Positions 3,138 through 15,479 of a stretch of 64,000 bases of DNA are shown piece after piece; positions within the stretch are counted from its first letter, which is position 1; every line of letters begins with the position of its first letter. A program made the position numbers and the translations under genes. The notes under the pieces are model-generated. The model was not told the DNA's origin. It was given only the letters and a program-made list of their open reading frames with translations, and did not search any database. This DNA comes from Propionispira raffinosivorans DSM 20765 (GTDB taxonomy: Bacteria; Bacillota; Negativicutes; Selenomonadales; Selenomonadaceae), in NCBI RefSeq assembly GCF_000381065.1, contig NZ_KB905841.1:1-64000 (forward strand), given 5' to 3'.

Positions 3138-3270
3138 TATTAAAGAAATTATAACCTATCAGTCTGCCAGGAAGGGGTAGGGCATCGTTTGCTTCCTACG
3201 TAACGCCACTCAACCCTATATCCCCTTCCTGACGATTGCCATATAGACTATTCAATGCAATTTATATAAT
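3138..3270 (+). repeat. dispersed hairpin repeat, copy 1
   Basis: This is one of three related elements in the window. An invariant 34-nt core (3180-3213) starts GGGCATCGTTTG and ends CGCCACTCAA. It sits at the tip of a stem formed by AGGAAGGGG (left arm) and CCCCTTCCT (right arm). Conserved flanks CAGTCTGCC (left) and GACGATTGCC (right) lie outside the stem. AT-rich ends resemble those of the other copies. No protein is encoded. It lies between the methyltransferase stop and a bidirectional terminator. A REP/MITE-like mobile unit or a structured RNA are both possible. Confidence 0.85.
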
Positions 3271-3311
3271 AAAAAATTCGTAAGCAGTAAAATCTGCCTA
3301 CGAATTTTTTT
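3271..3311. terminator. bidirectional intrinsic terminator between convergent genes
   Basis: A-rich sequence and ATTCGTAAGCAG pair with CTGCCTACGAAT across a 7-nt loop, and the hairpin is flanked by runs of A on the left and T on the right. It can therefore stop transcription from the methyltransferase gene (plus) and from the dehydrogenase gene ending at 3327 (minus). Confidence 0.85.
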
Positions 3312-4400: not shown

Positions 4401-4537
4401 TCTAAGCCTCAATCCTCTCTCATAAATCCCGATCATCCTAGCCCGTAATAAAATACATTGAAAATTCAATCATTTGATTATATTCTTCAATAAAATAACC
4501 AATCCCTTCTTTTTGAAAATATCCCAAACTGGTGGAA

Positions 4538-4689
4538 CCTATATATATGGCATTAAACATTTTATATGGCAATCGTCAGGACTGGGGTATAGGTTTGAGT
4601 GGCGTTACGTAGGAAGCAAACGATGCCCTATATCCCATTTCTGGCAGACTAATAGCTATATGTCGTATATTTTATGCATTAAATATATC
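4538..4689 (-). repeat. dispersed hairpin repeat, copy 2 (inverted relative to copies 1 and 3)
   Basis: On the minus strand this copy has the same 34-nt core as the other two (4628 to 4595 here). The stem is less perfect: CAGAAATGGGATATAGG against CCTATACCCCAGTCCTG gives about 14 of 17 pairs. The outer arms include a GGCATTAAACATTTTATAT tract shared with copy 3 and a mirrored GCATTAAA-containing tract at the other end, suggesting short terminal inverted repeats. Together with copy 1 it brackets the dehydrogenase gene. The 4401-4749 stretch holds this repeat and the terminator after it, and no gene. Confidence 0.82.
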
Positions 4690-8552: not shown

Positions 8553-9551
8553 TCAATTTACATATAAAGTGATGTTTCTTTTAATCTCCTGCAAATAAAT
8601 TTCTCGTTTCATATAAAGAACTTCTGCTTCTTGTAGCGATATTTCAGAAAAGTGGATCCGTTGTCCAGGTTTACTTTGTGCCAAAATAGTGAGGTCGACT
8701 CTTGCGACTTGAGCGATTTTCGGATAGCCCCCCGTAGTCTGACAATCTGCCAAAAGAATAATTGGCTGCCCATCCGGTGGTATTTGAATCGTGCCAAACG
8801 TCACCGCCTCAGAAAGCATTTCGTTTGGATTTTCCAGAGTTAATGCATCGCCTGCCAAACGATAGCCCATACGATCCGATTGCGTCGTAATCTGAAATGA
8901 CTTTTCGAAAAATTTTTTTTGGCTTGCTGCGTCAAAAAGCGAAAACTCATTTCCACGCGTTACGCGAATCACAATATTGTTTGATGATGCCAAACCTAAA
9001 GGTTCTGGAACATACCATAATGAACTGATAAAATTTTTTGTTTGATTGCTTTTTTGTAGTTTTTTTGTAAAAGACAGCTGATGATCCTTTACTGACGACA
9101 CTTGTAAAACATCACCTTTACGTAAAGCCCGCCCAGAAAATCCTCCAATTCCCGCTCGCAGATACGTGCTTTTACTTCCCATAACGACCTTTATATTGTA
9201 GCCGCCTGCTACTGCCAAATACGTACGACAGCCCGTTTTGCAGTCACCAAATTGCAAAATCGTATCTTGTGTAATATAAACAGGGCGCCACATCGGAACT
9301 CGTTCACCAGCGATCATCGGTGATAAATCAGCCCCGGTAATGGCAATCATGGTATTTTTTTTAAGTTTTAGATGAGGACCAATCATCGTTATTTCCATGA
9401 CAGCCTCCGGTTCAGGATTGCCTACCAAAATATTAGCGATGCGAAGCGAAAAAGCATCCATAACACCACTTACAATAACCCCATATTTTTGATAACCCGT
9501 TCTGCCTAGGTCCTGGATACTCGTAAACAACCCCGCTTTTAAAACCTCCAT
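8553..9551 (-). CDS. pxpC: 5-oxoprolinase subunit C (biotin-dependent carboxyltransferase-like family)
   Basis: The protein has 332 residues from the ATG at 9551. This ATG shares its A with the pxpB stop (TGATG) and has GGCGG 9 bases upstream. An ATG three codons earlier abuts the ribosome site. Family marks are LFTSIQDLGRTGYQKYGVIVSG at the start, then GVMDAFSLRIANIL and, near the end, ILLADCQTTGGYPKIAQV. PxpC works with PxpB and PxpA to open 5-oxoproline to glutamate at the cost of ATP. The family is also called KipA or AHS2-like, and older names as an allophanate hydrolase or carboxyltransferase reflect homology only. Confidence 0.9.
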   Translation of the reverse strand: MEVLKAGLFTSIQDLGRTGYQKYGVIVSGVMDAFSLRIANILVGNPEPEAVMEITMIGPHLKLKKNTMIAITGADLSPMIAGERVPMWRPVYITQDTILQFGDCKTGCRTYLAVAGGYNIKVVMGSKSTYLRAGIGGFSGRALRKGDVLQVSSVKDHQLSFTKKLQKSNQTKNFISSLWYVPEPLGLASSNNIVIRVTRGNEFSLFDAASQKKFFEKSFQITTQSDRMGYRLAGDALTLENPNEMLSEAVTFGTIQIPPDGQPIILLADCQTTGGYPKIAQVARVDLTILAQSKPGQRIHFSEISLQEAEVLYMKREIYLQEIKRNITLYVN

Positions 9552-10312
9552 CAGCTGCATCCGCCTTTCTCATACGCTTGATATTCTTCATATGATATCG
9601 AATAAAACTCTATAATATCACCTGCTTGTAAGAGACTAGGAATTTTTGAATCTGGCTGAAATAAGGCGAGGGGAGTCCGTCCGATGAGCTGCCAACCGCC
9701 TGGTGTCTCGATGGGATATATCCCGGTCTGCGTGCCTGCAATACCCACTGAGCCTTTTGGTATCGACAAACGTGGTGTAGACCGACGTGGTGTAGCAATT
9801 TGTGATGGCATGCCGCCTACATACGGAAATCCGGGTGCAAACCCAATCATATAAACTAAATATCTACCACTCGTATGAATATCTATAACATTCTGAACCG
9901 ATAGATTATGATAGGAAGCAATATACTCTAAATCCTGACCAAATTCGCCCCCATAGCAAACTGGTATTCGGACAAGATTTGTCTTGTTTTCTGCATTCAA
10001 ATTAACCATAGCGAACATCTCTTGCAAAATCCCCGCAACAATTTGATAAGAAAGTGATCCCGCCCCACCAGTCTGTTTATGAGCGATTGACCTTACCTGT
10101 AATGGATCATAATAGACGGTAACACTGCAAAACGATGTGATATATTCAACCATCCCTAAAAATGGATGCTGTTCTAGATAATTGGCAAAAGCTTTTACCT
10201 GTCGATGGATGTCCGGCGCAATCGTTTTACCAAAAGAAACCGTAATCCCCGCTTCGCCTAGCGGCATCGTCGTAATCGACTCATTAATACAACGATCTTC
10301 AGAAAAGATCAT
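9551..10312 (-). CDS. pxpB: 5-oxoprolinase subunit B
   Basis: The protein has 253 residues of the KipI/AHS1 family. Characteristic stretches are YLVYMIGFAPGFPYVGGMPS, then PRRSTPRLSIPKGSVGIAGT and the following TGIYPIETPGGWQLIGRT. PxpB and PxpC form the heteromer that, with PxpA, hydrolyses 5-oxoproline. In Bacillus the homologue KipI also inhibits a sporulation kinase, but the metabolic role is the better guide here. Its ATG overlaps the end of pcp by 4 bases (ATGA) and pxpC overlaps its stop, so pcp-pxpB-pxpC are translationally coupled. Confidence 0.91.
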   Translation of the reverse strand: MIFSEDRCINESITTMPLGEAGITVSFGKTIAPDIHRQVKAFANYLEQHPFLGMVEYITSFCSVTVYYDPLQVRSIAHKQTGGAGSLSYQIVAGILQEMFAMVNLNAENKTNLVRIPVCYGGEFGQDLEYIASYHNLSVQNVIDIHTSGRYLVYMIGFAPGFPYVGGMPSQIATPRRSTPRLSIPKGSVGIAGTQTGIYPIETPGGWQLIGRTPLALFQPDSKIPSLLQAGDIIEFYSISYEEYQAYEKGGCS

Positions 10313-10914
10313 CTCATCACCTCAATACATTCTGCAATTCCCTGAACAATCATAGCTAAAGACATACTTGGCTGACCCGGTTTTTGAATCACCTGCTCAG
10401 GTAAATAAGGTATATGCATAAATCCACCGGTACGTATATTTCCTTCTTTTTCAAGAAACTCCATTAGACGATAAAATATATGATTACATACAAACGTGCC
10501 CGCTGTATTAGATATTAGCGATGGAATATTAGAATGTGTCATTCTATCAACCATTTTTTGTATGGGCAACGTAGACCAATAACCTACTGCCCCATTCTTG
10601 TTAACCAATTCATTTACCGGCTGATTTCCTTCATTATCTGGAATACGAAAAGAATCTACATTGATTGCAACACGTTCTGGTGTTATTGCCACACGCCCTC
10701 CTGCTTGACCAAGAGCCAAAATACTGTCAGGCTGTATTTCATGAATATAGTTTTCCAATGCATCAAAGGCTTTTCCCCATACAACTGGCAATTCTCGTGT
10801 AACGACTTTTATTTTTGGAAAATTCATTTTATCTATTTCTCGAATCACTCGAATCGTTGGATTTATCGACTCTCCTTCAAATGGAGAAAATCCGGTCAAT
10901 AAAATTGTCTTCAT
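10309..10914 (-). CDS. pcp: pyroglutamyl-peptidase I
   Basis: The protein has about 201 residues from the ATG at 10914 (GGGGAGAG upstream; an extension upstream is not family-like). Pcp is a cytosolic cysteine peptidase that removes N-terminal 5-oxoproline from peptides. The family opening ILLTGFSPFEGESINP is clear. The catalytic Glu lies in ITPERVAINVDSFRIPDN, the Cys in NTAGTFVCNHIFY and the His in TGGFMHIPYLPEQ. In this operon it would supply the free 5-oxoproline that PxpABC converts to glutamate, which fits the neighbouring transporter-like DUF969/DUF979 genes. Confidence 0.93.
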   Translation of the reverse strand: MKTILLTGFSPFEGESINPTIRVIREIDKMNFPKIKVVTRELPVVWGKAFDALENYIHEIQPDSILALGQAGGRVAITPERVAINVDSFRIPDNEGNQPVNELVNKNGAVGYWSTLPIQKMVDRMTHSNIPSLISNTAGTFVCNHIFYRLMEFLEKEGNIRTGGFMHIPYLPEQVIQKPGQPSMSLAMIVQGIAECIEVMR

Positions 10915-10940
10915 AACGTTCTCTCCCCTCAATCTGATAT

Positions 10941-11894
10941 CTAAAAAGCAAGAAAATACATGAGGAATACATTGCAAAATAATAACAGTAAGGCGGTTGG
11001 TATCTGGGTTTTTATAACAGCATTTTTATCCTCTAAGTCCAATAAAGCTGCCGGAACAATATTAAAATTTGCCGCCATTGGCGTCATCAATGTACCACAA
11101 TAACCAGAAAACATCCCAATAGCCGCTACGACTCCAGGATTTCCACCATGCAATTGAATAATCAATGGCAGTCCTACGCCAGCTGTCATTACCGGAAAAG
11201 CAGCGAAAGCATTTCCCATGACCATTGTAAAAAGTGCCATACCCAGTACATACGCTAAAACTACCATAAATCGATTATCGACAGGAATCGCCGATCCGAC
11301 CAATTCTGCTACGACCTGCCCCACACCAGCAGCGGCAAATAAAGCACCTAATGTTGCTAACATTTGTGGCAAAACAGCCGCCCAGCCAATTGCATCAATC
11401 AAACGACGAGACTCTTTTAATGAACGAATTGTTGTATCTTTCGTTAAAAATAAAGCCGTTAATAAAGCAACAATACAAGCTACACCTAAACTAACCAGCG
11501 TAATATTGCTTTTATCTAAAAGAGCCAAGCCAGCTATGCTAATATCTTTTAAACCCAATGTTCCTATAATCGTAACAATCGGAATCAGTAATGCTGGTAA
11601 AAACAGACGGCTGCCCAATTTTTTTGCTTGCGTGAATCTATGCTCTTGTGAAACTTCATCATACATTCCTAATCGTACACCACCAGCACCAGCTATAATA
11701 GCCATTGCAATAACCAAAACCCCCATGTAAAGCGGTGGAATAATATCCCCAAATATAAAAGATACGGCAAATAATCCCCAAAATGAAGCCGTCAATATGC
11801 GTTTTGAGTTTGATTTATCTTTTAGAGCAAAAAAAGCAATAATTGCCATAAATATTCCCGTCAGATAATAAATATAAGTTAAGCTAATAATCAT
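10941..11894 (-). CDS. DUF979-family membrane protein, probable transporter subunit
   Basis: The 317-residue, very hydrophobic protein has about nine membrane spans. It matches the DUF979 pattern that pairs with DUF969 beside pcp in many Firmicutes. Its ATG overlaps the DUF969 stop by 4 bases, and GAGGAG lies upstream. Stretches such as AYVLGMALFTMVMGNAFAAF and a later GYCGTLMTPMAANFNIVPAA resemble the paired re-entrant or substrate regions of ion-coupled carboxylate carriers. The co-occurrence with pcp and pxp genes suggests that the pair carries 5-oxoproline or pyroglutamyl peptides across the inner membrane. That role is inferred from context. Confidence 0.85.
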   Translation of the reverse strand: MIISLTYIYYLTGIFMAIIAFFALKDKSNSKRILTASFWGLFAVSFIFGDIIPPLYMGVLVIAMAIIAGAGGVRLGMYDEVSQEHRFTQAKKLGSRLFLPALLIPIVTIIGTLGLKDISIAGLALLDKSNITLVSLGVACIVALLTALFLTKDTTIRSLKESRRLIDAIGWAAVLPQMLATLGALFAAAGVGQVVAELVGSAIPVDNRFMVVLAYVLGMALFTMVMGNAFAAFPVMTAGVGLPLIIQLHGGNPGVVAAIGMFSGYCGTLMTPMAANFNIVPAALLDLEDKNAVIKTQIPTALLLLFCNVFLMYFLAF

Positions 11895-12592
11895 GATTTT
11901 TCACACTCCTCAACGTCTTTTAGACTAACATTATATTCAGCATCTAACTTTCTATCCAATAAAATTAGCCGAACCGAATGAATTAGAAATGCTAAAATCG
12001 CGGTTGGTATTCCCCACAAAGCAATATCTAAGGGCTCAAGAATCAGTCCATTTTGTTCAAAAAATCCTTTCATCAGTAAAACCCCACCAAAAGCGACAAA
12101 AATATCTTCGCCAAAAAAAACGCCTACATTATCTACCGAAGCAGAAAAACTTTTAATTTCTTCATGTGTCTTTGCTGATAGTTTCCCATATTTATTTTCA
12201 GCAGCCCCCTCCGCCATCGGTGCTATTAACGGACGCACCATTTGTGCATGACCACCTAATGCCGTCAAAGCCATTGCTGCAGCAGCTTCACGAATAAAAA
12301 GGTATAAAATAAGCACGCGCCCAGTCGTTGCTATTTTAACAGAACCAATGAGTTTTTGTGCTTGCTCCTTTAACCCATTACGTTCTAGTAAACCAATAAC
12401 TGGCAAGGTAAGAATAAAGAGTGACAGATATCTATTTTTAACAAAAGCTTCACCAAAAATAATAAGAATTTTATCAATAGGCAACGCCCCTGCGAGTCCC
12501 GTTACAATTCCGGCAATAACAACAACCATCAATGGATTAAATCTTAAAACGAAACCTATAATTACAACTACAATACCTAATAATGTTAACAT
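11891..12592 (-). CDS. DUF969-family membrane protein, probable transporter subunit
   Basis: The 233-residue protein has about six membrane spans, beginning MLTLLGIVVVIIGFVLRFNP. It resembles the N-terminal half of dicarboxylate-type permeases, with a central loop SAKTHEEIKSFSASVDNVG. It always appears with DUF979, here with overlapping genes, so the two probably assemble as one split carrier. GGAGGAGGA lies before the ATG. A gap of 98 bases separates it from pxpA, and I see no terminator in it. Substrate assignment to 5-oxoproline rests on the neighbours. Confidence 0.85.
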   Translation of the reverse strand: MLTLLGIVVVIIGFVLRFNPLMVVVIAGIVTGLAGALPIDKILIIFGEAFVKNRYLSLFILTLPVIGLLERNGLKEQAQKLIGSVKIATTGRVLILYLFIREAAAAMALTALGGHAQMVRPLIAPMAEGAAENKYGKLSAKTHEEIKSFSASVDNVGVFFGEDIFVAFGGVLLMKGFFEQNGLILEPLDIALWGIPTAILAFLIHSVRLILLDRKLDAEYNVSLKDVEECEKS

Positions 12593-12690
12593 CGTAATCC
12601 TCCTCCTTGTCCTGCTCCCAAAACTCGATAATTTTCTTCTTGTGCAGCCATCTTATAAAATACCCTGTATAAAGACTTCTATAATTTTTC

Positions 12691-13449
12691 CTATCGCAAC
12701 GACTGTACAACAATCCCCTTGTTCCGTAAACTTTCTTTTATTTTTTTAGCGAACAATACAGCTTTTGCTCCATCGCCATGAATACAGATTGTATCCGCTT
12801 TAAGATTGACAAGACTACCTTGTCTTGATAAAACAGAACCATTCGTCACCATACCAAGAACTTGCTTGATGGAGTCTTGTTCATTGGTAATCATCGCATT
12901 CATTTGCTGCCTTGATGTCAGTGAACCATCCGATTGATACGTACGATCCGCAAATACTTCACTGGCAGTACGAAGACCAATCTGCTCACCAGCTTTAATG
13001 CTTTCACTGCCGGATAAGCCAAATAAGATCAACCCTGGCTCCAGTTTATAAATTGCTTCGGCAATTCCCTCTGCCAAAAATTTGTTTTTTGCAGCCATAT
13101 TATAAAGTGCACCATGAGGTTTAACGTGTTGCAAAATCCCCCCGGCTGCTTTGACAAAAGCCTGCAGTGCACCCACTTGATATAAAACCATATCATAGGC
13201 TTCTCGTGCGGTTATATCCATCACACGGCGACCAAATCCATTTAAATCGGGAAGTCCCGGGTGTGCACCAATTGCCACATTGTTTTTCAGAGCCAATTCT
13301 ACGGTTTTGTGCATTACGGCTGGATCTCCAGCGTGAAATCCACAAGCAATATTTACGGAAGTTACAAACGGCAGGATCTCTTGATCAAGTCCTAATGTAT
13401 AACTACCAAAGCTCTCACCTAAATCACAATTCAAATCTACCTGATACAT
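12691..13449 (-). CDS. pxpA: 5-oxoprolinase subunit A (LamB/YcsF family)
   Basis: The 252-residue protein opens [20 protein letters not shown], with the acidic metal-site motif DLNCDLGE of the family. It continues with [20 protein letters not shown], then [15 protein letters not shown] and [12 protein letters not shown]. These match PxpA, the subunit that acts with PxpBC in ATP-dependent cleavage of 5-oxoproline to glutamate. It is the first gene of the operon. AAAGGGGCG lies before the ATG. The 342-base leader region upstream holds a repeat copy, a hairpin with T run, and a likely promoter (separate entries). Confidence 0.93.
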
Positions 13450-13476
13450 TTTGTATCGCCCCTTTCTATGTAGAAC

Positions 13477-13616
13477 GCATTAAAGAAATCCCATCCAGTC
13501 TATCAGTCTGCCAGGAATTGGGTATAGGGCATCGTTTGCTTCCTACGTAACGCCACTCAACCCTATACCCAATTCCCGACGAGTACTATGTAAAATGTTT
13601 AATGCCATATATATAC
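13477..13616 (+). repeat. dispersed hairpin repeat, copy 3, in the pxpA leader
   Basis: This copy has the best stem: GGAATTGGGTATAGGG pairs completely with CCCTATACCCAATTCC around the invariant 34-nt core (13527-13560). Compared with copy 1 the stem sequence differs on both arms in a matching way, so base pairing is kept. CAGTCTGCC at the left and a TTTAATGCC tract at the right are shared with other copies. Because it lies between the likely pxp promoter and pxpA, it would be part of the mRNA leader, where it could affect stability or translation. Confidence 0.85.
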
Positions 13617-13662
13617 AAAAATGGCACCTCAAACAAAGTTAATCTTTGTCTAAAGCGCCATT
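13616..13662 (-). terminator. minus-strand-specific intrinsic terminator or attenuator in the pxp leader
   Basis: As minus-strand RNA, AAUGGCGCUUUAGACAAAG pairs with CUUUGUUUGAGGUGCCAUU over a 5-nt AUUAA loop, using several G-U pairs, and is followed by UUUUUG. On the plus strand those wobbles become A-C mismatches, so the structure is built for minus-strand transcription. The second pxpC already has its own terminator at 13738-13784, so this one probably acts about 75 nt after the pxp promoter, as an attenuator or the end of a short RNA. Confidence 0.65.
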
Positions 13663-13699
13663 GCTTCTCTAAAATAATATTGGTATTCTTCTTGGTATT

Positions 13700-13728
13700 A
13701 TCATATCACCTCTCAGGCATTCGGTAAA
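13700..13728 (-). promoter_or_regulatory. likely sigma-A promoter of the pxpA operon
   Basis: On the minus strand TTTACC (13728-13723) and TATGAT (13705-13700) are separated by 17 bases. Transcription would start near 13692, just upstream of the leader hairpin. The segment AATACC occurs twice shortly downstream and could be a regulator contact. Confidence 0.5.
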
Positions 13729-13737
13729 ATTGAAAAA

Positions 13738-13784
13738 ATAAATAGGGTTGTTCAATTTTTTCGAAAGTTGAACAACCCTATTTT
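13738..13784. terminator. intrinsic terminator after the second pxpC gene
   Basis: AAATAGGGTTGTTCAA pairs perfectly with TTGAACAACCCTATTT across a 12-nt loop, and on the minus strand a T-rich tract follows. It closes the lysR-pxpB-pxpC transcript. Confidence 0.88.
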
Positions 13785-13791
13785 AAATACA

Positions 13792-14727
13792 TCAGCCAAG
13801 TTGTTTTCTAATCCGCGCATAGGCTGTTCTTTCAATTTCCAAAGCAGCAATTGCTGCCGCTTCTGTTACCTGTTGAAATTGAATCGTATCACCTATATTT
13901 GCCTGTGCAACTTTCGGAAAATCAACCTGGATTATATAGCCTATTTTAGGAAATCCTCTCGTAGTACCATGATCCGATGCCACAATATAAGGAAGTCCGC
14001 AGGCAGGAATCTCTATTGCACCAAGCCCCACTCCATCCGATATAACATCGACCTTGTCCAGCATAGCCAGTTTTGGACCGGCAAGTTGATAATTCACACG
14101 ATCTGCCGCTGTAACAAGATAAGACTCCGTAAAAAAGCGAATCACCGCTTCAGCTTGAAATAAATGTGTCTGCGGTCCACTGACCACACGCAGCGTCCAT
14201 TGCTGAGAATATACAGGAATATCAGAGGCAGCTAATTTTTGTACTTTAGCTGGACGAAGTATATCTTTCCCCATATATAAAACATCCCCTTGCTGCAAAG
14301 TCCGCCCTTCTACTCCTCCCAGTTTCGCACCAGTATACGTAGATCGACTCCCCATAACCCATGGAACATCAAAACCACCCCTAACCGCTAAGTAAGCACG
14401 CTGCCCAAAAACAGCCCGTCCAAAATGCAATTCTCCGCGTCGTGGTATCAATATAGATGACCAATTGGCGATAATTTTTCCATTGACTCGTGCCTGCATA
14501 TCTGCACCACAAAGCGAAACCAGCGTTTCCTCATCAAAGCGAAAGGCCGCCCCTGATCCCGTCATTTCAATCACAGCAGCTGTTTCCAGATTACCAATAA
14601 GACAATTTGCCATTTTATAGGCATAGCTGTCCATAGCTCCAGCAATTGGCATACCCCAAGCTTGATATCCCCAGCGTCCTTTATCTTGTAATGTCGAAAA
14701 ATCTCCCTGTTGAATCACTGTAATCAT
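13792..14727 (-). CDS. second PxpC-like protein (biotin-dependent carboxyltransferase-like family)
   Basis: The 311-residue paralogue of the pxpC product encoded at 8553-9551 keeps the family order: FSTLQDKGRWGYQAWGMPIAGAMDS, shown here only as a guide in parts (STLQDKGRWGYQ, then GMPIAGAMDSYAYKMAN), and later IVASDHGTTRGFPKIGYI. It differs widely from the first copy, so it is not a recent duplicate. Its ATG overlaps the preceding pxpB-like stop by 4 bases. No second pxpA is near. The pair may share the single PxpA, act on a related lactam or amide, or be a regulatory pair. Confidence 0.85.
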   Translation of the reverse strand: MITVIQQGDFSTLQDKGRWGYQAWGMPIAGAMDSYAYKMANCLIGNLETAAVIEMTGSGAAFRFDEETLVSLCGADMQARVNGKIIANWSSILIPRRGELHFGRAVFGQRAYLAVRGGFDVPWVMGSRSTYTGAKLGGVEGRTLQQGDVLYMGKDILRPAKVQKLAASDIPVYSQQWTLRVVSGPQTHLFQAEAVIRFFTESYLVTAADRVNYQLAGPKLAMLDKVDVISDGVGLGAIEIPACGLPYIVASDHGTTRGFPKIGYIIQVDFPKVAQANIGDTIQFQQVTEAAAIAALEIERTAYARIRKQLG

Positions 14728-15479
14728 ACTTTCTCCTGCTCCTCCGCACTGACTTTAAGTTGATAATTTCCTTTTGCCACCTCTTGACGAATTGAAAAAT
14801 ACTGTTCAAAAGGAATCGATTCAAATTGCACATAATCGCCTGGTGCGAGTAAAAATGGCTCTGACCTTGTCGGATCAAAAGCTTTTAAGGGGGTCCGACC
14901 AATCAGCCACCATTCACCCGGGCTTTCAATCGGGTAAAATCCCGTCTGATTACCGCCAATTCCCACCGAGCCAACAGGAACCCGACTGCGTGGTTTTTCC
15001 TGACGAGGCACATTTAATAAATCGGATAATCCGCCCAAATAGGGAAATCCGGGTGTGAATCCCAGCATATAAACTAAATACGGCTGCCCTGTATGCATTT
15101 TAATGACTTGCTTTGCCATAATACCTGTATATTTTGCAACATATTCTAGATCCGGTCCTAAAACGCCACCATAACAAACGGGAATATGCACAACACGTCG
15201 TACTAAATTCCCAAATTTGGTAAGTTGCAAATCCGCTAAAATGACCTCAATCTGTTTTGTTAAAGACGCTCGCGTAATTTTAAATGGATCAAAATAAATT
15301 ACAACAGAGCAATAGGACGGAACGGCTTCGATCATTCCATTAACTTTAGAACCTGAGACCATCCGCATAAAAGTCTGAACACATAAATTAATAGTCGGAG
15401 AAATGGTTGCACCAAATTCTACGACTAAGCCACCTTCTCCCGCAGCCAATAACTTTACATCATCTAAAAAAGAATCCAT
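14724..15479 (-). CDS. second PxpB-like protein
   Basis: The 251-residue KipI/AHS1-family protein has YLVYMLGFTPGFPYLGGLSD, then RSRVPVGSVGIGGNQTGFYP and ESPGEWWLIGRTPLKAF, all in the same order as the first PxpB. It is coupled to the PxpC-like gene by an ATGA overlap and lies 56 bases after a LysR gene on the same strand, with no pcp or pxpA. The ribosome site is weak (AAGTGAG). The reaction is unknown: 5-oxoproline hydrolysis with the other cluster's PxpA is possible, as is a different ring-opening reaction. Confidence 0.85.
   Translation of the reverse strand: MDSFLDDVKLLAAGEGGLVVEFGATISPTINLCVQTFMRMVSGSKVNGMIEAVPSYCSVVIYFDPFKITRASLTKQIEVILADLQLTKFGNLVRRVVHIPVCYGGVLGPDLEYVAKYTGIMAKQVIKMHTGQPYLVYMLGFTPGFPYLGGLSDLLNVPRQEKPRSRVPVGSVGIGGNQTGFYPIESPGEWWLIGRTPLKAFDPTRSEPFLLAPGDYVQFESIPFEQYFSIRQEVAKGNYQLKVSAEEQEKV

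Follow-up and report, generated by a model that had tools for sequence, protein, structure and literature searches.

A terminator hairpin overlapped by a candidate hexaloop hairpin precedes pxpA in Propionispira raffinosivorans and probably acts as an ANTAR-type transcription attenuator

In Propionispira raffinosivorans DSM 20765, a long hairpin followed by a run of U residues lies between pxpA and a promoter located upstream, which raises the question of what a terminator does at this place. An earlier note, made from the letters alone, proposed that it either serves as an attenuator or ends a short RNA. Our analysis of the window, i.e. the whole stretch of 64,000 nucleotides examined (contig NZ_KB905841.1), favors the attenuator, since the hairpin is conserved and covaries and since an alternative hairpin uses the same 5' arm. 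We give a probability of about 0.73 to the reading that pxpA and the genes after it are subject to transcription attenuation by this leader, which would work like ANTAR-controlled leaders and serve nitrogen use. The features on which this reading is based are collected in Table 1.

Table 1. Features of the pxpA leader and of its surroundings (positions in the window)
Feature	Positions	Strand	Evidence
DUF969, DUF979, pyroglutamyl-peptidase I, pxpB and pxpC genes, after pxpA on the same strand	8553..12592	(-)	NCBIfam/Pfam
pxpA, first gene past the leader	12691..13449	(-)	ORFs, NCBIfam/Pfam
Dispersed MITE-like repeat of about 150 bp with flanking TA, separating the terminator from the ribosome-binding site	13466..13615	(-)	At least 41 genome copies
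Intrinsic terminator: 19-bp stem, AUUAA loop, UUUUU	13617..13662	(-)	Folding, terminator scan; covariation in 16 leaders
Candidate P2-type antiterminator: hairpin GAAGC-AAUGGC-GCUUU, A1 and G4 in the loop	13652..13667	(-)	Scan, alignment, fit to eut consensus
Promoter TTTACC, 17 nt, TATGAT, TG before the -10 box; start expected near 13693	13700..13728	(-)	Promoter scan; recurrence in leaders
Inverted repeat and T run, probable terminator of pxpB'-pxpC'	13740..13783	(-)	Sequence, repeat analysis
Second pxpB-pxpC pair (pxpB'-pxpC'), upstream of the leader	13792..15479	(-)	NCBIfam/Pfam

Two pxpB-pxpC pairs thus flank the pxpA leader (window 8553-15479), and a LysR-family gene precedes the upstream pair (NCBIfam/Pfam). 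Like known 5-oxoprolinase PxpABC clusters, this region carries pxpA, pxpB and pxpC together with a pyroglutamyl-peptidase gene, but it differs from them by its two pxpBC pairs, its DUF969 and DUF979 genes and its attenuator-like leader. The genes located downstream of pxpA would constitute one operon. The previous gene had been credited with a terminator of its own, and an inverted repeat with an adjoining T run is indeed found after pxpC'; it is a probable terminator, which our terminator scan did not list as such.

The hairpin itself corresponds to what had been described. On the minus strand, its 5' arm (13662-13644), loop (13643-13639) and 3' arm (13638-13620) form 19 consecutive pairs, four of which are G-U, and the stable stem is followed by five U (13621-13617) and then a G. 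The U run ends about 77 nt past the expected transcription start (about 75 nt had been claimed) and 171 nt separate the stem end from the start codon of pxpA (about 170 nt claimed). The stretch 13693-13612 folds to -25.5 kcal/mol, compared with -10.6 (sd 2.6) in 200 dinucleotide shuffles, none of which folds as well (z -5.7). Furthermore, over stretches of similar length the opposite strand folds to only -12.7 kcal/mol, versus -24.8 for the hairpin strand, and it has no T run at the hairpin; the strand specificity that had been proposed is therefore correct. A bare terminator-like pattern has five matches in 5 kb, this hairpin being one of them, for 4.3 (sd 2.2) in shuffles. Hence, the case for a terminator rests on length, energy and conservation, and the pattern match does not carry it. 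Promoter-like sites are likewise no more frequent in the same scan than in shuffles (10 versus 13.3), and the pxpA promoter gains weight because it occupies the same position in the leaders of relatives. Among 18 pxpA leaders compared, 15 have TTTAC(A/C/G), a spacer of 17-18 nt and TATGAT upstream of the hexaloop hairpin described below; two more (L189 and L190) have a close form and one (L069) lacks this promoter.

The earlier note suggested searching the leaders of related pxpA operons for an alternative antiterminator pairing. Such a pairing was found: a P2-type hairpin of 5 bp, whose six-base loop carries A at position 1 and G at position 4, overlaps the 5' arm of the terminator. Since GCUUC is common to both structures, P2 and the terminator are mutually exclusive. 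The sequence AGCAAUGGCGCUU matches at 12 of 13 positions the consensus AGCAANGRRGCUY given for eut leaders under ANTAR control in PMC3369931. The fold of P2 is weak in this species (-4.3 kcal/mol, versus -7.3 in G125), and in the nascent RNA a competing fold is slightly better (-4.9 kcal/mol).

In order to assess conservation, the regions upstream of pxpA were examined at 77 PxpA loci across the class Negativicutes. A terminator overlapped by P2 was retrieved by the scan at 19 of them, including our genome and the second Propionispira genome (G001), and the leader with its promoter, terminator and overlapping hexaloop hairpin recurs in other families of Negativicutes. All 19 are among the 65 loci from genomes encoding an ANTAR protein, versus none among 12 loci from ANTAR-less genomes, nine of these 12 being from one genus; common ancestry may account for part of this co-occurrence. 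The scan gave no match at the other 46 loci from ANTAR-bearing genomes; among the loci without a match, one has no upstream sequence and four have less than 400 nt. It also missed leaders that are visible by eye: in L063, L065, L068, L071, L072, L075 and L077, which are not counted in the 19, hexaloops are seen and the terminators escaped the scan.

Sixteen leaders were aligned, leaving aside L062 (identical in the stretch), L069, L197 and L216 (other terminators) and the cases found by eye. The terminator comprises 17 column pairs, of which 96.0% of the 272 cells are paired; seven of the 17 pairs have changed on both sides, which none of 500 shuffles equals, and controls slid along the alignment are paired at 57.7% at most. 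The earlier note made its proposal depend on the presence of the hairpin in relatives, and this hairpin proves to be both conserved and covarying. The arms of P2 (GAAGC/GCUUC) are paired in 80 of 80 cells and vary only by G-U, with no compensatory change within the alignment; outside it, the hairpin is kept with different letters in L069 (UUAGC/GCUAA) and L197 (GGC/GCC). The loop has A at position 1 in 15 and G at position 4 in all 16 leaders, but this is not independent evidence because positions 4-6 pair in the terminator and the first residues of the U run can pair with positions 1-2; position 3 is variable (A in 11, G in two, U in two, C in one). Between the window and G001, the segment 13616-13791 has no mismatch over 176 positions and the repeat has three over 150, versus 91 of 936 aligned bases in pxpC' and 47 of 706 in pxpA.

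Some of these observations would also suit another device, namely a fixed intrinsic terminator that merely lowers downstream expression with no regulator, the hexaloop being a by-product of the terminator 5' arm. In favor of this explanation, the terminator covaries and P2 varies only by G-U, P2 is weak in this species, and the P2 loop bases also participate in the terminator. However, the 5' arm of P2 lies outside the terminator, and yet its five pairs are kept in every leader aligned. In addition, the enrichment of the hexaloop pattern among genomes (see below) tracks both the presence of ANTAR proteins and the A1/G4 positions. Hence, we consider a fixed terminator unlikely.

The spacing of the leaders bears on a second alternative, in which the hairpin would end a separate RNA of about 77 nt acting in trans, pxpA being served by another promoter downstream. 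The promoter and the terminator do bracket a short unit. However, the stretch between promoter and P2 is variable in length and sequence (23-48 nt from the promoter end to the AGC of P2 in the 17 leaders with the promoter or its close form), except for a TCACAAG-like part after the -10 box in many leaders. Moreover, among 17 leaders from outside Propionispira, 14 have 23-43 nt between the end of the terminator and the start codon of pxpA (69, 76 and 106 nt in the three others), which leaves little room for a second promoter, although the 150-bp repeat of our genome could in principle hold one. A trans-acting RNA thus appears improbable.

Sensing of the metabolite itself is still less probable. 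The earlier note suggested 5-oxoproline or glutamate as signals; we found no support for either as a direct signal, and the anatomy of the leader points to an ANTAR response regulator. A ribosome-mediated attenuator could make use of an 11-codon ORF readable just before the hairpin. However, the ATG of this ORF is located within the -10 box TATGAT and the peptide, compared by eye, is not the same in relatives; because of the position of this ATG, the leader peptide was rejected. As for a riboswitch, no Rfam family reaches its cut-off: the whole window yields only one tRNA, located elsewhere, and the 12 matches obtained between 13400 and 13800 at E values up to 10 are all under the gathering cut-off. 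Since the distance from the -10 box to P2 can be as short as about 20 nt, there is no room for an aptamer. We therefore regard a small-molecule or ribosome-mediated attenuator as very improbable.

The preferred reading, attenuation by an ANTAR regulator, requires such a protein in the genome. P. raffinosivorans encodes two REC-ANTAR response regulators, each adjoining a kinase with GAF_PdtaS and HisKA_2 domains: one on contig C8 near groL, the other on contig C35 beside genes encoding an ethanolamine permease, eutA and eutB. In the family, 87 of 121 genomes have an ANTAR domain above the cut-off, as do 38 of 46 further genomes of the class that encode PxpA. This association of a REC-ANTAR regulator with a GAF_PdtaS/HisKA_2 kinase is shared with the PdtaS/PdtaR two-component system; the difference is that antitermination on nitrogen genes is proposed here.

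The same device is found elsewhere in the genome. The pattern GCAANGNNGCN{15,45}TTTTT has at least 111 matches, versus 24 for the reversed pattern, T runs being counted multiply in these figures. Among the matches listed, 13 sites besides that of pxpA have an apparent terminator by eye, and eight of these precede nitrogen-related genes. These include two tandem sites upstream of an NCS1 permease and a hydantoinase (L248, G000:C26:30228 and 30302) and sites upstream of amtB and PII, a class-III aminotransferase, SsnA, a carbamoylase-family amidase with an amidohydrolase, and two amino-acid ABC systems. The five other or unclear sites concern DUF3870 followed by an MR_MLE enzyme, DUF3100, a 2-hydroxyacid dehydrogenase, a MerR gene and one location inside a coding frame.

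A stricter pattern, GCAAWGRNGCYN{12,42}CTTTTT, was searched in 66 genomes selected by ANTAR presence. It has 268 matches versus 45 for the reversed control in the 42 genomes with ANTAR, and 35 versus 25 in the 24 without. In the same 42 genomes, swapping G4 for the other three bases gives 320 versus 136 matches (about 107 per base) and swapping A1 gives 179 versus 100 (about 60 per base). The ratio of matches to control thus drops from 6.0 to 2.4 and 1.8, respectively, these ratios being rough because the reversed control alters dinucleotides. The correlation has exceptions on both sides: nine of the 42 ANTAR genomes show no excess over the control or have no more than one match, and the ANTAR-less genus g61 displays a mild excess (21 versus 9 in seven genomes).

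Both alternative structures, their conservation, the covariation of the terminator, the ANTAR genes and the recurrence of the device before other nitrogen genes are thus results of this work. The binding of a protein, the choice of the regulator, the signal and the effect on expression, which we infer, would combine as follows. Transcription would start near 13693; by default, the 19-bp terminator would form and release an RNA of about 77 nt that ends near 13616. Under nitrogen shortage, a kinase would activate an ANTAR response regulator; the likeliest pair is the one near groL, with its PdtaS-type kinase, and not the one that adjoins the ethanolamine genes. The regulator would grip the hexaloop hairpin 13667-13652 and hold its 3' arm, the terminator would be kept from closing and the polymerase would then continue into pxpA.

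The proposed mechanism has to be compared with what is established for such proteins. A1/G4 hexaloops at the 5' base of terminators are recognition sites of ANTAR proteins. In PMC3369931, the ANTAR target motif consists of two hairpins (P1 and P2, the latter with a stem of 3 bp or more), and deletion of P1 ablates induction by EutV. According to PMC8934654, one hexaloop suffices as the minimal binding motif, while termination is prevented only if a dimer contacts each hexaloop. With the ANTAR leaders of eut in Enterococcus, nasF and amiE, the pxpA leader shares an A1/G4 hexaloop hairpin over the 5' arm of an intrinsic terminator, an AGCAANGRRGCUY-like sequence, a link to nitrogen genes and an ANTAR response regulator in the genome. 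It differs from them by the upstream hairpin: P1, i.e. an A1/G4 hexaloop shortly before P2, was not detected in our pxpA leader. Therefore, we class this leader as a single-hexaloop variant and not as a full member of the ANTAR dual-hairpin RNA.

This difference appears to extend beyond our locus. P1 was detected in three of 30 leaders (18 of pxpA and 12 sites of our genome) for 2.2 (sd 1.4) in shuffles, in a scan with no known positive, since none of nine loci around a second, weaker-scoring ANTAR gene, L170 being the only one demonstrated to be an ethanolamine locus, has a dual unit; seven of these nine have P2 and a terminator. A dual pattern with GC-closed loops has no match in our genome and nine in the 42 genomes; by eye, none of these nine has a matching terminator, and no common form of P1 with other loops was seen by eye in the pxpA leaders or in the sites of our genome. 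We see an even chance that Negativicutes possess a widespread ANTAR nitrogen regulon with one-hexaloop leaders, in which P2 alone would suffice for antitermination by REC-ANTAR proteins, whereas EutV requires both hairpins. With the attenuator reading, an otherwise unexplained hairpin becomes an element of a likely regulon tying 5-oxoproline use to nitrogen control in Negativicutes. This reading also puts to the test the two-hexaloop rule of ANTAR antitermination (PMC3369931, PMC8934654); if single-hexaloop leaders work, searches for dual motifs have missed targets. The main text of PMC3369931 contains neither 'oxoprolin' nor 'YcsF' and, among the literature matches listed, no title concerns the pxpA leader or the 150-bp repeat, which does not prove their absence from the literature.

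Several leaders depart from the common form. Beside the ethanolamine genes of L170, two leaders (4490-4545 and 4610-4665) are found; the first has an AAUAAC loop, with A instead of G at position 4, and upstream of it lies an AAUGGA loop whose closing pair is mismatched. Upstream of pxpA in L071 and L072, two successive terminators are seen by eye, each with a hexaloop, and a P1-like hairpin (CAGU-AAAGGU-ACUG) about 28 nt before the second P2 distinguishes them from other leaders. In L185, which has the same type of pxpA leader, and at G000:C5:28821 (-), the hexaloop-terminator units have G for A at loop position 1, hinting, from these sequences, that a purine may suffice there.

The leader of our genome also differs from most others by the distance of about 170 nt between terminator and pxpA, which is due to the insertion of a dispersed repeat in Propionispira; the repeat is found between terminator and ribosome-binding site in both species. 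At least 41 distinct copies occur in the genome (a lower bound, 40 of 140 candidates having been scored in one search), all 41 intergenic in an ORF-based test, with no preference of orientation towards neighboring genes. Two others are in the window (4540-4655 and 3139-3274) and those located elsewhere are L002-L040. The repeat has inverted ends (TATATAGAACGCATTAAA-like), a long complementary stem and a strongly conserved loop core, GTTACGNAGGAAGCAAACGAT. Covariation detected by RNAalifold is weak (4 of 16 pairs); between the window and G001, two of the three changes in the repeat form a compensated pair. For one copy, the empty site of P. arboris fits a TA duplication (L007 versus L111). The large hairpin formed by 13466-13615 was considered as a part of the switch and rejected, given that this sequence recurs as a dispersed repeat and shows no preferred orientation relative to genes.

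Our repeat would resemble MITE-type dispersed repeats, such as bcr1 and RUP, by its size of about 150 bp, intergenic location, inverted ends, TA at one empty site and copy number, and would differ from them by its conserved loop core and by its restriction, among the genomes searched, to Propionispira and one Sporomusaceae MAG. Only the two Propionispira match among the 121 genomes of the family, and 31 of the 33 stretches matching the core in named genomes belong to Propionispira arboris DSM 2179. The viral collection holds no match to the core, and a Lachnospiraceae match (L109) was discarded since it lacks the repeat ends and looks coding by eye. The Sporomusaceae MAG (L122, JAPUES010000112.1, about 3150-3290) carries a relative of the core with the same loop and a different, largely complementary stem, suggesting, as far as sequence comparison can tell, that selection may act on the folded form of the repeat.
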